Origin: Acidimicrobiales bacterium
GTDB lineage: Bacteria; Actinomycetota; Acidimicrobiia; Acidimicrobiales; RAAP-2
NCBI GenBank assembly: GCA_017883045.1
Contig: JADGOJ010000001.1
Location: forward strand, 1 to 64,000
Length of the DNA: 64,000 nucleotides
Direction of reading: 5' to 3'
This document shows, one piece after another, positions 31,743 to 38,046 of the stretch. The notes beneath the pieces are model-generated. The model was not told the DNA's origin and did not search any database. It was given only the letters and a program-made list of their open reading frames with translations. The number at the start of each line of letters is the position of its first letter. Positions within the stretch are counted from its first letter, which is position 1. Position numbers and translations under genes: made by a program.

Positions 31743-33152
31743 GTGGCATCGCAGAGCGTTTTGACCCCTCAGGACGAGGACTTCCCCCGCTGGTACCAAG
31801 ACGTCGTCGCCAAGGCCGAGATGGCCGACAACGGTCCGGTCCGCGGCACCATGGTCATCCGCCCCTACGGCTACGCCATCTGGGAGCGCATGCAGGCCGA
31901 GATCGACCAGCGCATCAAAGAAGCCGGCGCCCAGAACGCCTATTTCCCGCTCTTCATCCCCGAGTCCTACTTCCACCGCGAGGCCGAGCACGTCGAGGGC
32001 TTCAGCCCCGAACTGGCGGTCGTGACCCACGCGGGTGGCGAGGACCTGGCCGAGCCGATCGTCGTTCGCCCGACCTCCGAGACGGTCATTGGCGAGTTCA
32101 TGGCCAAGTGGATCCAGAGCTACCGCGACCTGCCGCTGCTGCTCAACCAGTGGGCCAACGTCGTGCGCTGGGAGCTGCGCCCCCGGCTCTTCCTGCGCTC
32201 GTCGGAGTTCCTGTGGCAAGAGGGCCACACCGCGCACGCGACCTACGAGGACGCCGCCGCGTACGCGATGAAGATCCACCTCGAGGTCTACAACGACTTC
32301 CTGGAGAAGGTCCTCGCGGCGCCGACGTACCTGGGCATCAAGCCGCCGACCGAGCGCTTCGCCGGGGCGATCAACACGATGACCTGCGAGGGCATGATGC
32401 GCGACGGCAAGGCCCTGCAGATGGCGACGAGCCACGAGCTCGGACAGAACTTCGCCAAGGCCTTCGACATCTTCTACCAGAACGAGGACGGCCAGGCCGC
32501 GCTCTGCCACACCACCTCGTGGGGCGCCTCGACGCGGCTCGTGGGCGGGCTCATCATGCTCCACGGGGACGACAGCGGCCTGGTGGTCCCCCCGCGCCTC
32601 GCGCCGATCCAGGTGGTGGTCGTCGCCGTTCGCGACGAGCCCGAGGTGAACGAGGCGTGCGAGCGGATCGCCCAGTCCCTGAAGGGCGAGGGCGTCAGGG
32701 TCCAGGTCGACCGCGGTCGCGGAAGCTTCGGGCGGCGCCTCACGGACTGGGAGATCAAGGGCGTGCCGCTGCGCGTGGAGGTCGGACCACGCGACCTGGC
32801 CCAGGGTCTCGTGACGCTCGTGCGCCGTGACAACGCCGAGAAACTCCCCGTCGCCCTCGATGCGGTGGGTGGCGAAGTCGCAAGGCTCCTCGAGGCCATG
32901 CAGAGCGCGATGTTCGACGACGCGCGCCAGCGCCGCGACGGCGCCACCGTCGACGTCAAGAGCGTCGCCGAGGCCGTCGAGGCCGCCCAGACCGGCTTCG
33001 CGCGACTTCCCTGGTCGCAGGTGGGCTACAAGGGGGAGAACGAGCTCAACTCCCAGGCCATCACCGTTCGCTGCCTGCAGCGACGCGACGGGTCCATGCC
33101 GGTCACCGACACCGAAGACGAACTGGACTGCATCGTCGCCAAGTCCTACTGA
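31743..33152 (+). CDS. proS: Prolyl-tRNA synthetase, short archaeal/eukaryal-like type
   Basis: FPRWYQDVVAKAEMAD...RGTMVIRPYGYAIWE, VVRPTSETVIGEFMAKWI, FLRSSEFLWQEGHTAH; about 470 aa without the bacterial editing insertion. Confidence 0.93.
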   Translation: MASQSVLTPQDEDFPRWYQDVVAKAEMADNGPVRGTMVIRPYGYAIWERMQAEIDQRIKEAGAQNAYFPLFIPESYFHREAEHVEGFSPELAVVTHAGGEDLAEPIVVRPTSETVIGEFMAKWIQSYRDLPLLLNQWANVVRWELRPRLFLRSSEFLWQEGHTAHATYEDAAAYAMKIHLEVYNDFLEKVLAAPTYLGIKPPTERFAGAINTMTCEGMMRDGKALQMATSHELGQNFAKAFDIFYQNEDGQAALCHTTSWGASTRLVGGLIMLHGDDSGLVVPPRLAPIQVVVVAVRDEPEVNEACERIAQSLKGEGVRVQVDRGRGSFGRRLTDWEIKGVPLRVEVGPRDLAQGLVTLVRRDNAEKLPVALDAVGGEVARLLEAMQSAMFDDARQRRDGATVDVKSVAEAVEAAQTGFARLPWSQVGYKGENELNSQAITVRCLQRRDGSMPVTDTEDELDCIVAKSY

Positions 33153-33214: not shown

Positions 33215-33243
33215 TTGTGACTCGACGCTGGGACTGCTACAAT
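33215..33243 (+). promoter_or_regulatory. Putative sigma70-type promoter for the rimP-nusA-infB operon
   Basis: TTGTGA (33215-33220) - 17 nt - TACAAT (33238-33243), preceded by TGC (extended -10). Confidence 0.6.
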
Positions 33244-33282
33244 TTCTGTCTACAGTCCGCTCAGGACGTTTGGACTCGTTTA

Positions 33283-33313
33283 AGCGCGGGCCTCGGGCCC
33301 GCGCTTTTTCTTT
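33283..33313 (+). terminator. Intrinsic terminator between proS and rimP (possible attenuator)
   Basis: agcgcgggcc-tcg-ggcccgcgct followed by tttttcttt. Confidence 0.85.
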
Positions 33314-33350
33314 GTCCGAACGTCCTGTCGACACAGAGAGGAGCAATGGC

Positions 33351-33845
33351 ATGGATCTGGAGACCCCATTGCGCTCGCTGCTATCCGACCTCGGACTCGA
33401 CCTCTACGACCTGGAGATGGTGAAGGGGACCCTGAACGTCGTGGTGACCAAGTCCGGCGGGGTGGACCTGGAGTCGCTCACCAGGGCCAATCGCGCGATT
33501 TCGGAGTGGCTCGACGTGAACGACCCCATCGCGGGCCGCTACACCCTGGACGTCTCGAGCCCCGGGCTCGAGCGCAAGCTGCGCACCGCCGCGCACTTCC
33601 GGTCCACCGTCGGCGAGGTCGTCACCCTTCGCGAGCTGCGAGGCAGCGAGCCCACCCGCCGCCTCGAGGGAACGGTGCTGTCGGTCGACGACACCACGGT
33701 GACCCTCGACGACGCCGAGCACGGTGTCGTCACCGTCCCCATCGACTCGATCGAGCGCGCGCGCACCGTCTTCAAGTGGGGCGCCGAGGCCAAGCCCACG
33801 CCGTCGCGCGGTAAAGCATCCTCATCAACGGCTAAGGAAGGTTAG
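33351..33845 (+). CDS. rimP: Ribosome maturation factor RimP
   Basis: LLSDLGLDLYDLEMVKGTLNVVVTKSGGVDLESLTRANRAISEWLD...YTLDVSSPGLERKLRTAAHF; upstream of nusA; SD gagaggag. Confidence 0.92.
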   Translation: MDLETPLRSLLSDLGLDLYDLEMVKGTLNVVVTKSGGVDLESLTRANRAISEWLDVNDPIAGRYTLDVSSPGLERKLRTAAHFRSTVGEVVTLRELRGSEPTRRLEGTVLSVDDTTVTLDDAEHGVVTVPIDSIERARTVFKWGAEAKPTPSRGKASSSTAKEG

Positions 33846-33847
33846 AG

Positions 33848-34999
33848 ATGGCGAACTTCGAATTCCTGGAAGCTCTAGGACAGATTGCCCGCGATCAGAA
33901 CATCGACGAAGGGGAGTTGCTGATCGCGCTCGCCAACGCCCTGCTCGCCGCCTACAAGCGCCGTCCCGACTCTGCTGAGGACGCCGAGGTGGAGATCAAC
34001 CCCGAGACCGGCGAGATCAAGGTCTGGGGCCTGGAGCTCGACCTCGAGGGCAACGTGACGCGCGAATGGGACGCGACGCCCGAGGACTTCGGGCGCATCG
34101 CCGCCCAGACCGCCAAGCAGGTCCTGATGCAACTGATCCGCGACATCCAGCGCCGCCAGATGTACGAGGAGTTCGCCAATCGCGAAGGCGACATCGTCTC
34201 GGGTACGGTCCAGCAGAACGACAACCGCTACACGCTGCTCGACCTCGGTCGGGTCGAGGCGCTGCTGCCCCAGGCCGAGCAGATCGCCTTCGAGCGCTAC
34301 GAGCACGGCGCGCGCATCAAGGTGTACATCGTCGAAGTGCGCAAGACCAACAAGGGCCCCCAGATCGTCGTGAGCCGCACCCACCCGGCGCTCGTCGCCA
34401 AGCTCTTCGAGATCGAGGTGCCCGAGATCGCCAACGGCATCGTCGAGATCAAGGCGCTGGCGCGCGAACCGGGTCACCGCAGCAAGATCGCCGTGGCGTC
34501 CAACGACCACATGGTCGACCCCGTCGGCGCGTGCGTCGGCGCGCGCGGCAGTCGGGTGCGCAACATCACCAACGAGCTGCGCAGCGAGCGCATCGACGTG
34601 GTGCCCTACAGCGACGACCCGATCCAGTTCATCCAGGCCGCGCTGCAGCCCGCGCGCGTGCGCGAGGTGCTTTTGAACGAGGAGGAGGGCATCGCCACGG
34701 TCATCGTCCACGACCAGCAGCTCTCGCTCGCGATCGGCAAGGAGGGCCAGAACGCCCGCCTCGCGGCGCGCCTCACCGGATGGCGCATCGACATCCGCTC
34801 GGAGAACGAGGGCGTCGAGGACCAAGTCGTCGAAGAGGTCTGGACTGAGGGCGACGTCGTGATCGACGACAAGATCGTGGTCGTGGCCGACGAGCACGGT
34901 GACGTCGAGGCGATCGTCGTCGACGAGGTCGTCACCGACGCCGAGGGCGACCACATGGTGGTCGTCGTGACCGAGGAGATCGTGGAGGGCGAGGCATAG
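33848..34999 (+). CDS. nusA: Transcription termination/antitermination protein NusA
   Basis: EALGQIARDQNIDEGELLIALANALLAAYKR; S1 region; KH motifs VGACVGARGSRVRNITNELRSERIDVVPYS and LAIGKEGQNARLAARLTGWRIDI. Confidence 0.96.
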   Translation: MANFEFLEALGQIARDQNIDEGELLIALANALLAAYKRRPDSAEDAEVEINPETGEIKVWGLELDLEGNVTREWDATPEDFGRIAAQTAKQVLMQLIRDIQRRQMYEEFANREGDIVSGTVQQNDNRYTLLDLGRVEALLPQAEQIAFERYEHGARIKVYIVEVRKTNKGPQIVVSRTHPALVAKLFEIEVPEIANGIVEIKALAREPGHRSKIAVASNDHMVDPVGACVGARGSRVRNITNELRSERIDVVPYSDDPIQFIQAALQPARVREVLLNEEEGIATVIVHDQQLSLAIGKEGQNARLAARLTGWRIDIRSENEGVEDQVVEEVWTEGDVVIDDKIVVVADEHGDVEAIVVDEVVTDAEGDHMVVVVTEEIVEGEA

Positions 35000-35253
35000 C
35001 ACCGGTCCGTACGTGCGTCGTCTGTCGTTCGAGGCGTGATGACGCGCAGATGGTCCGAGCCGGACGCAGCGCGGATGGTTCGTGGTACGTCGGTCGGGGA
35101 ACCGGTCGGGGAATCTGGTGGTGTCGGGACTCAGAGTGCGAACGGGCTCTGCGGGCGAGCCACGTGGCCCGGACGCTGCGAAAAGCGGTGTCCGAAAGCG
35201 ACGTGGAGGCCTTGCGGAGTCTGCGAGCAGGTGGTAAGTCCACAAAGCAGTAG
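34996..35253 (+). CDS. ylxR: YlxR (DUF448) family protein; apparent ATA start
   Basis: APVRTCVVCRSRRDDAQMVRAGRSADGSWYVGRGTGRGIWWCRDSECERALRASHVARTLRKAV; between nusA and infB; no in-frame ATG/GTG/TTG upstream of the CxxC motif. Confidence 0.75.
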   Translation: MAPVRTCVVCRSRRDDAQMVRAGRSADGSWYVGRGTGRGIWWCRDSECERALRASHVARTLRKAVSESDVEALRSLRAGGKSTKQ

Positions 35254-35273: not shown

Positions 35274-35295
35274 GTGCTCGCAGTAGTGCGAGCAC
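35274..35295 (+). promoter_or_regulatory. Perfect 9-bp hairpin immediately upstream of infB
   Basis: gtgctcgca-gtag-tgcgagcac ending one base before GTG 35296. Confidence 0.6.
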
Positions 35296-35313
35296 GTGAA
35301 GCAAGGGAATGTT

Positions 35314-38046
35314 TTGGCCCAGAAGAAGATTCGAGTGCACGAGCTCTCCAAGGAGCTCGGTCTCACGAGCAAAGAGTTGCTCGCGCTCGCCCAAAAACTA
35401 GGCATCGGCGCGTCGAGCCCCTCTGCCTCCATCGAGGACGCCCAGGCAGACCGTATCCGCCGGCGCGCGGACGCCGACGGGCTTCGTCGTGTCGTCCAGC
35501 CCGAAGAGCCGGCCAAGGCCGAAAAGTCGACCAAGGCCGCCGCCGCGGCGAAGGCCGCGCCCGTTCGCGCCCCTGAACCGGCCGAGGCCGTGGCGCCGAC
35601 GCGCGTCAGTCGTGTCACCAAGGCCGCCGCGCCGAGCGAAGCGCCGGTCGTCGAGGCCATCGCGCCAAGTCCCAGCGCTGCCGTCGAGTTGCCCGAGGCC
35701 ATCGCGCCCAAGGTCGTGCGCAGCCGTGCGCCCGTCGCGAAGCCGGTGCCCACGCGCACCGTCTCACCCGACGGTCCCACGACGATCCGCCCCACGCAGC
35801 GCTCGGTCGCTGGCGAGGGCGGCGAGGGCGGCGCTCCGTCGACTCGTCCGCCACTCAGTTCGACCGGCCGTCCGATCCCACCACCCCCGGGCCGCCCACT
35901 CAGTGCGACCGGCCGTCCGATCCCGCCGCCGCCCGGTGCGCGTCGACCGATGCCGGGCGGCACCGGCCGCCCGTCGGGCCCCGGTGGTCCTCGGCCCATG
36001 GGCACCTCTCGTCCGAGCACCGGCGCCCCGCGTACCGGTGGGCCGACGTCGCGTCCCGGTGGCGCGGGCGGCGGATTCGCCGGATCGCGCCCCGGCGCGC
36101 CGACCGGCGGTGCGCCGGGCGGCCCGAGCCGAGGCGGTCCGCCGCGCGGAGGCGGAGGGCCCCGCGGCTCCCAGCGCAAGGCCACGCGCCGTCGTCGGCG
36201 CAACGTCGAAGAGCTCGAGCCGACCCAGATGACCACGTGGCAGCCGAGCAGCTCGCCGGTGCCCGAGGGGGAGATCATCATCGAGCGCGGCTCGACCGCC
36301 AAGGACGTCGGACCGAAGCTCAACCGCAGCGCCGCGGACATCATCCGCTTCTTGTTCCTCCAGGGCGAGATCGTCACGGCGGTCCAGAGCCTCACCGACG
36401 ACATGATCGAGCTCTACGCCGCCGAGGTCGGGGCGGTGGTGCACCTGGTCGATCCCGGTGAGCAGCAAGAGGCCGCGCTGCTCGCGAAGTTCTTCGACGA
36501 GGACGACCAGGACGACGAGATCCCCGCCGTGATGCGACCACCGGTCGTCACGGTCATGGGCCACGTCGACCACGGCAAGACCCTGCTGCTCGACAAGATC
36601 CGCAAGACCGACGTCGTCGCCGGCGAGGCCGGTGGCATCACCCAGCACATCGGCGCCTACAAGGTGCAATGGAAGGGCAAGGCCATCGCCTTCATCGACA
36701 CCCCGGGCCACGAGGCCTTCACGGCGATGCGCGCGCGCGGTGCGAAGGTCACCGACATCATCATCCTGGTGGTCGCCGCCGACGACGGCGTGATGCCCCA
36801 GACGATCGAGGCGATCAACCACGCCAAGGTCGCCGACGTGCCGCTCATCGTGGCGGTGAACAAGATGGACAAGCCCGACGCCAACCCTGACCGTGTGCTC
36901 CAGCAGATCAGCGAGTACGGCCTCGTGCCCGAGAAGTGGGGCGGTGACACGATCTGTGTCGAGATCTCCGCTCTCCAGGGCACCGGCATCGACGAGCTGC
37001 TCGAACAGGTGCTGCTCGTCGCGGAACTGGCCGAACTCGCGGCCCGTCCGAGCGGGCGTGCCGTCGGCACGGTGCTCGAGGCGAACCTCGAGGTCGGGCG
37101 CGGACCGGTCGCCACCGTCATGGTCCAAAAGGGCCTGCTCTCGGTCGGTGACCCCGTCGTCGCCGGCGCCGCGTACGGCAAGGTCAAGGCCCTCATCAAC
37201 GACCAGGGCAAGCAGATCAAGAGCGCGGGTCCCTCGACGCCGGTGCAGATCCTCGGCTTCAGCGAGCCCCCGTTCGCCGGTGACGAGATGCGCGTCGCCC
37301 ACGACCTCACCCACGCCCGCTCGCTCGCCGAGGCCCGCGCGCAGCGCGCCCGCCTGATCGGTCACCAGCCCGTCGCCTCGACCAGTGGCGCACGCCTCGA
37401 GGACCTCTTCGAGCAGATCCAGCGTGGCGAGACCGCGACGCTCAACATCGTGCTGAAGGCCGACGTGCAGGGTTCGCTCGAAGCCTGCACCGAGTCGCTG
37501 CGCAAGCTCGAGCGTGACGACGTGAAGCTCGTCATCGTGCACCGCGGGGTCGGTGGCATCACCGAGAACGACGTGCAACTGGCCAAGGCCTCGGGCGCCA
37601 CCATCATCGGCTTCAACGTCCGCCCCGACAAGCGCAGCCGCGACCTGTCGGAGAACGAGGGTGTCCAGATCCGCACCTACGAGATCATCTACAAGCTGAT
37701 CGAGGAGATCGAGGCGGCGATGCTCGGCCTGCTCTCACCGGTCTTCGAAGAGGTCGTCACCGGCGAGGCCGAGGTGCGCGAGGTCTTCCGCGTACCCAAG
37801 ATCGGCGCCATCGCCGGTTGCTTCGTGCGCGACGGCGTCATCACTCGCGGATCGAAGGTTCGATTCCTTCGCGAGGGGACGATCATCTGGAAGGGCTCGA
37901 TCACGTCGCTGCGTCGCTTCAAGGACGACGCGCGCGAGGTGCAGTCCGGATTCGAGTGCGGTGTAGGTCTCTCCGACTACCAGGACCTCAAGCCGGGCGA
38001 CATCATCGAGACCTTCGAAGAGCGCGAGATTCCAAGAACGGCCTAG
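35314..38046 (+). CDS. infB: Translation initiation factor IF-2
   Basis: AQKKIRVHELSKELGLTSKELLALAQKLG; VTVMGHVDHGKTLLLDKIRKTDV, DTPGHEAFTAMRARGA. TTG 35314 (SD aaggga) or GTG 35296 as start. Confidence 0.96.
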   Translation: MAQKKIRVHELSKELGLTSKELLALAQKLGIGASSPSASIEDAQADRIRRRADADGLRRVVQPEEPAKAEKSTKAAAAAKAAPVRAPEPAEAVAPTRVSRVTKAAAPSEAPVVEAIAPSPSAAVELPEAIAPKVVRSRAPVAKPVPTRTVSPDGPTTIRPTQRSVAGEGGEGGAPSTRPPLSSTGRPIPPPPGRPLSATGRPIPPPPGARRPMPGGTGRPSGPGGPRPMGTSRPSTGAPRTGGPTSRPGGAGGGFAGSRPGAPTGGAPGGPSRGGPPRGGGGPRGSQRKATRRRRRNVEELEPTQMTTWQPSSSPVPEGEIIIERGSTAKDVGPKLNRSAADIIRFLFLQGEIVTAVQSLTDDMIELYAAEVGAVVHLVDPGEQQEAALLAKFFDEDDQDDEIPAVMRPPVVTVMGHVDHGKTLLLDKIRKTDVVAGEAGGITQHIGAYKVQWKGKAIAFIDTPGHEAFTAMRARGAKVTDIIILVVAADDGVMPQTIEAINHAKVADVPLIVAVNKMDKPDANPDRVLQQISEYGLVPEKWGGDTICVEISALQGTGIDELLEQVLLVAELAELAARPSGRAVGTVLEANLEVGRGPVATVMVQKGLLSVGDPVVAGAAYGKVKALINDQGKQIKSAGPSTPVQILGFSEPPFAGDEMRVAHDLTHARSLAEARAQRARLIGHQPVASTSGARLEDLFEQIQRGETATLNIVLKADVQGSLEACTESLRKLERDDVKLVIVHRGVGGITENDVQLAKASGATIIGFNVRPDKRSRDLSENEGVQIRTYEIIYKLIEEIEAAMLGLLSPVFEEVVTGEAEVREVFRVPKIGAIAGCFVRDGVITRGSKVRFLREGTIIWKGSITSLRRFKDDAREVQSGFECGVGLSDYQDLKPGDIIETFEEREIPRTA

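Follow-up and report, generated by a model that had tools for sequence, protein, structure and literature searches.

A conserved promoter and rimP-leader-type terminator ahead of rimP-nusA-ylxR-infB in Acidimicrobiales: a probable leader attenuator with a genus-specific 5' element

The spacer between proS (stop at 33152) and rimP (ATG at 33351) in an Acidimicrobiales genome (assembly of 2.28 Mb in 156 contigs) holds a leader in which a terminator stands between a promoter and the first gene of the operon encoding NusA. The question raised by this locus, which lies in a 64,000-nucleotide stretch of DNA (the window), is whether the terminator controls the operon behind it or simply belongs to the gene in front of it, since a strong stem followed by a U-tract would also suit a plain terminator. 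Both readings had been put forward in a first-pass annotation of the window. The probability that the spacer constitutes the promoter and leader attenuator of rimP-nusA-ylxR-infB, of the rimP-leader type and with NusA thought to strengthen termination, is put here at about 0.72.

The mechanism that we infer from the anatomy and conservation of the leader (Table 1) is as follows. Transcription would begin at ~33250, and some of the RNA polymerases would stop at 33307-33313 to give an RNA of ~60 nt, the remaining fraction reading through into rimP-nusA-ylxR-infB. NusA, as the presumed signal, would promote termination in the leader of its own operon, thereby holding its own level steady. A genus-specific 5' element most likely tunes the read-through, by binding a protein or by base-pairing with the 5' arm of the terminator.

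Table 1. Coordinates of the leader features and operon genes in the window
Feature	Position	Strand	Basis
Promoter TTGTGA-17-TGcTACAAT (extended -10)	33215..33243	+	Sole sigma70-type match in 10 kb; conservation
Leader element ACAGTCCGC-NNN-GGACGTTTGGACTCGTTT, nearly invariant	33252..33281	+	Conservation in 81 congeners; pattern scan
Candidate antiterminator, 33255-33260 (GUCCGC) with 33286-33291 (GCGGGC) and 33264-33268 with 33277-33281	33255..33291	+	Minimum-energy fold with the terminator 3' arm not yet out
Intrinsic terminator, rimP-leader type, GGGC...GCCC core (stem 33282-33306) and U-rich tract	33282..33313	+	Kept in genus and order
Right arm of outer stem	33314..33327	+	Exists, not conserved
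Shine-Dalgarno site of rimP, AGAGGAG type	33336..33343	+	0.94 identity in congeners
rimP	33351..33845	+	Pfam PF02576 and PF17384
nusA	33848..34999	+	Pfam NusA_N, S1, KH
ylxR (rnpM family)	35002..35253	+	Pfam PF04296
infB	35296..38046	+	Pfam IF-2, GTP_EFTU

Anatomy of the leader and its conservation within the genus

The promoter-like pair noted in the first-pass annotation was found to be present and TG-extended: a -35-like TTGTGA (33215-33220) and a -10 TACAAT (33238-33243) are separated by 17 nt, with TG before the -10. Against 0.5 sigma70-type matches expected in 10 kb, this was the single one observed, while terminator-like sites in the same region numbered five against 3.7 expected, the leader terminator being the strongest of them. 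Neither count is significant alone, so the reality of the two elements rests on conservation. The comparison was made with 81 same-genus genomes, in which rimP identity falls to 54% and the leader nevertheless aligns readily. The TGNTANNNT columns of the promoter were (nearly) invariant across these congeners and the -10 was kept, with a mean majority identity of 0.89 for the extended -10, against 0.52-0.59 at most of the background positions around the conserved blocks.

The terminator, AAGCGCGGGCC-TCG-GGCCCGCGCTT followed by TTTCTTTG, has an 11-bp stem that contains the GGGc...gCCC motif (GCGCGGGCCTCGGGCCCGCGC), and the mean majority identity of its two arms was 0.97. It sits ~60 nt after the predicted start of transcription and ~38-45 nt ahead of the rimP start. 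The strong intrinsic terminator that had been described between the promoter and the first gene of the operon was borne out, with a stem conserved in the genus and, as described below, in the order. As read from the sequence, neither ATG nor GTG occurs as a start with a Shine-Dalgarno site between the predicted start and the terminator, and ribosome-mediated attenuation was rejected because the leader holds no translatable leader peptide before the terminator.

The 5' element begins ~8 nt past the -10, where transcription is predicted to start (~33250-33252). It comprises ~27 bases, may also be written ACAGTCCGC-N3-GGACGTTTGGACTCG, and includes a hairpin of GTCC (33255-58) with GGAC (33264-67). 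The two halves of the leader, ACAGTCCGC and GGACGTTTGGACTCGTTTAA, showed mean majority identities of 0.985 and 0.941, and the conserved stretch corresponds to the entire predicted terminated RNA, from predicted start to terminator.

The distribution of the element was followed with an IUPAC pattern run against 84,980 species genomes, which returned 85 stretches, 80 of them listed as loci; the close relatives found in this way were mostly assemblies named Acidimicrobiaceae or actinobacterial metagenome. A rimP match was present in 77 of the 80 listed loci and lay 76-104 nt downstream of the element in all but one partial match. Two of the other three loci end just past the rimP start, and the third, in a planctomycete assembly (L106), has neither terminator nor rimP and was taken as chance. 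Among the matches listed, and this chance match aside, the element occurs only before the rimP of its own clade. It is a single-copy sequence, with no further copy in its own genome within three mismatches. A covariance model run on a class-wide sample matched strongly in 14 genomes, all of the same genus, and in none of five sister-genus genomes; the weaker matches that were checked, in G261, G308, G234, G294 and G382, lay away from rimP and were taken as chance hairpins. One sister genus (L296, L297) carries a vestige of the element, CAGTCCGGTCTCGG / CAGTCCGG. As judged from these comparisons, what is new at this locus is a nearly invariant 5' element confined to one genus and added to the known rimP-leader terminator.

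Alternative folds of the leader

The first-pass annotation had proposed alternative folds in which a left arm pairs with agtcc at 33254-33258. That pairing exists, and GTCC/GGAC was invariant in 80/80 distinct rows; such invariance is compatible with a folding switch and does not prove one. With only the 5' arm of the terminator exposed, the best fold was GUCCGC/GCGGGC around a GGACG/CGUUU stem (-13.6 kcal/mol), and the same fold was obtained for nearly all of 30 distinct leaders in the absence of the terminator 3' arm. Once the RNA reaches 33300, about where the polymerase would meet the U-tract, this fold yields to the 5' hairpin plus terminator.

One interpretation of these calculations is that the leader is a switch-type attenuator, in which the GTCC/GGAC hairpin favours the terminator, GUCCGC pairing with GCGGGC antiterminates, and a ligand or protein on the 5' element chooses between them. 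The crossover of the competing folds near the U-tract and the participation of the conserved blocks in pairing would both suit such a device. However, the antiterminator arms, which pair in 98.8% of cells across the congener leaders, do so without covariation because they hardly change, ~15% of shuffled leaders likewise pair with the terminator 5' arm, and the complete terminator fold is ~15 kcal/mol more stable than the antiterminator. The order-level leaders described below likewise gave no antiterminator signal (arm pairing of 0.49 vs 0.54 in shuffles). It could be that GUCCGC and GCGGGC form an antiterminator, a plausible hypothesis from the modelled folds and a candidate in the window's own genus only, but a switch of this type is regarded as a tentative, minority reading of the leader. 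The same modest standing is given to its strongest form, in which the 5' element would be a new RNA sensor or protein-binding site, restricted to one genus, that makes a two-state switch of the rimP-leader terminator by way of GUCCGC-GCGGGC.

The invariant letters of the 5' element, which are not covarying pairs, could also be read at the level of DNA. The inverted and direct GGAC repeats at about +3 to +25 would then form an operator, AGTCC-N5-GGACG-N3-GGACT, lying over the transcription start and binding a repressor or activator. Yet the conservation continues into the terminator, and a single copy in the genome would require a regulator with one target, making an operator doubtful.

The enclosing stem to which the first-pass annotation had drawn attention fared differently from the terminator inside it. 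Its arms, 33262-33275 and 33314-33327, form 14 pairs as described, and these pairs dominate when the whole leader is folded as a read-through transcript (-56.7 kcal/mol, z -5.9); the stem is partly present in the closest relatives. In the covariation analysis of the spacer the terminator and leader proved to be conserved and the outer stem did not: the mean majority identity of its right arm was 0.534, within the background range given above, pairing across 80 distinct leaders reached 67.3% of cells vs 66.3% in shuffles, and no convincing covariation was found in those leaders. The same counting tool detected covariation in a hairpin ahead of infB (see below), and the null result for the outer stem is therefore informative. 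Moreover, the right arm lies past the U-tract and the termination point, so that only RNAs already extended by read-through could fold into the outer stem. The outer stem was rejected as a regulatory structure, its right arm drifting at the background rate.

Conservation beyond the genus and the relation to proS

The leader might still owe its terminator to proS, with a plain proS terminator happening to lie after a rimP promoter. Indeed, proS is upstream in ~79/82 congeners, and no other terminator was detected after proS. The first-pass annotation had named this as the simpler alternative, to be preferred if the inner terminator persisted as a proS terminator while the outer stem was not conserved. 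The outer stem does lack conservation, but the conserved promoter comes before the terminator, and the rimP upstream regions of 47 genomes from other families of the order argue against a terminator that serves proS alone.

A strict GTGGG...CCCAC core was present in 35/47 of these regions, nearly always as GCGTGGGC(3-5)GCCCACGC with a U-rich tract behind it, while variant cores were seen in several of the other genomes. The stem is conserved in sequence between families. A -10 with at least 5/6 matches (a TATACT-like motif) was found 25-70 nt upstream of the strict core in 21 of the 35 genomes, compared with 1.4 expected from shuffled windows and 0 in a control window further upstream. No proS-like end was detected within 450 nt in 33 of the 47 genomes, and 24 of those 33 retained the strict core, from which it follows that the terminator is not simply that of proS. 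A leader of this kind (GCTATACTTCGG, ~40 nt, GCGTGGGCGTTGCCCACGCTTTTGATTT) also occurs in one genome in which rimP could not be detected (G097, L250; 92% complete); there it directly abuts nusA, whose product is 71% identical to the NusA of the window, and a proS-like stretch lies upstream. The plain proS terminator was rejected on these grounds and is considered very unlikely, while the order of promoter, terminator and operon, and with it the attenuator reading, is supported by conservation that includes genomes in which proS is not upstream. Transcripts of proS probably end at the leader terminator too, in which case both genes may be served by it. Least probable of all is that the ~60-nt terminated RNA acts in trans as a small regulatory RNA, a role suggested by the conservation of its entire length from predicted start to terminator, as the conserved placement of promoter and terminator with respect to the operon is better explained by control in cis.

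Related GTGGGC...GCCCAC-type terminators, for example GAAGTGGGC(N4)GCCCACTTT, were also found before rimP in other classes of a phylum-level sample. Two other sequences were noted in these wider comparisons. CGTTCGA was enriched between promoter and terminator in order-level leaders (L083-L090, L208-L246; five leaders vs 0.3 expected) and is perhaps the counterpart of the genus element. Leaders from another part of the phylum (L256, L262, L285) have in common a GAACTNAGTAYGGG-like stretch upstream of a GAGTGGGT terminator, perhaps another lineage-specific 5' element.

Known leaders of the operon and its neighbouring features

Naville & Gautheret (2010, PMC2965389) singled out the rimP-leader as the most ubiquitous of transcription attenuators. 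Its GGGc...gCCC terminator is conserved in sequence and lies within 4-130 nt of the gene; the leader was reported mainly for Firmicutes and Gammaproteobacteria, with no general antiterminator and with NusA as the best candidate effector. The leader described here resembles it in its premature intrinsic terminator before rimP-nusA-infB, in the GGGC...GCCC stem, in a distance from the gene within that range, and in a stem conserved in sequence and not just in pairing. Unlike the rimP-leader, the leader of the window's genus has in addition a 5' half that is nearly invariant and includes a candidate antiterminator. An Rfam model for a rimP leader, RF01770 (covariance-model threshold 47 bits), gave no match at the locus, its best match in the same genome being elsewhere at 15.6 bits. 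Matches to RF02278, suhB and other Rfam models in the region were far under their thresholds and were discarded as generic hairpins with a U-tract.

In B. subtilis, NusA stimulates termination in the nusA operon leader (Mondal et al. 2016, as summarised in PMC12288461). The terminator is likewise part of the operon's 5' leader, but NusA dependence was demonstrated there, whereas NusA-stimulated termination is proposed here by inference. In the S. agalactiae rimP-nusA leader, termination occurs 31 nt after a mapped start, short and long transcripts were seen by RNA-seq, and NusA feedback was proposed (PMC4448216). There too the terminator comes shortly after the start and before rimP-nusA-infB; unlike that mapped leader, the one described here is predicted to measure ~60 nt and carries the extra element. 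NusA feedback control of the E. coli metY-rimP-nusA-infB leader is reported as cited in PMC2965389 and PMC4448216; the operon is the same, and the leader in the window has no tRNA gene and a different architecture. By analogy with these systems, autoregulation of the leader by NusA is likely. In the rrn leaders of congeners, CTCCTTGAAAACGGAAGAACGAGAGCCAAAAGCCAGTACGG or near forms were found but not the 5' element, which leaves the element with no sequence link to a NusA site; a boxC-like match considered as part of a NusA boxA-boxC-type site was rejected as it was absent from those rrn leaders.

These comparisons widen the range of the rimP-leader attenuator, and of its sequence-conserved terminator stem, to Acidimicrobiales and other classes of the phylum. 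That the leader abuts nusA in one genome with no detectable rimP suggests that it is kept for nusA and not for rimP, and the genus element offers a defined target in the search for whatever reads the leader.

Further along the operon, ylxR, between nusA and infB, was missing from the list of open reading frames and apparently has no ATG, GTG or TTG start in frame. The true start of infB is probably a TTG near 35314 rather than the GTG at 35296, and a Shine-Dalgarno site (AAGGGAA) and a TTG-GCC-CAG context are conserved around this TTG. Directly 5' of the infB start, at 35274-35295, lies a hairpin, GTGCTCGCA-gtag-TGCGAGCAC, with a conserved AAGAATAGAYAACTG ahead of it. In 10 congeners 95.3% of its cells were paired and compensatory changes were found in 5/9 pairs, a covariation score reached by 0/500 shuffles. 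From this pattern of changes, the hairpin is likely to represent, close to infB, a second cis-element of the operon.
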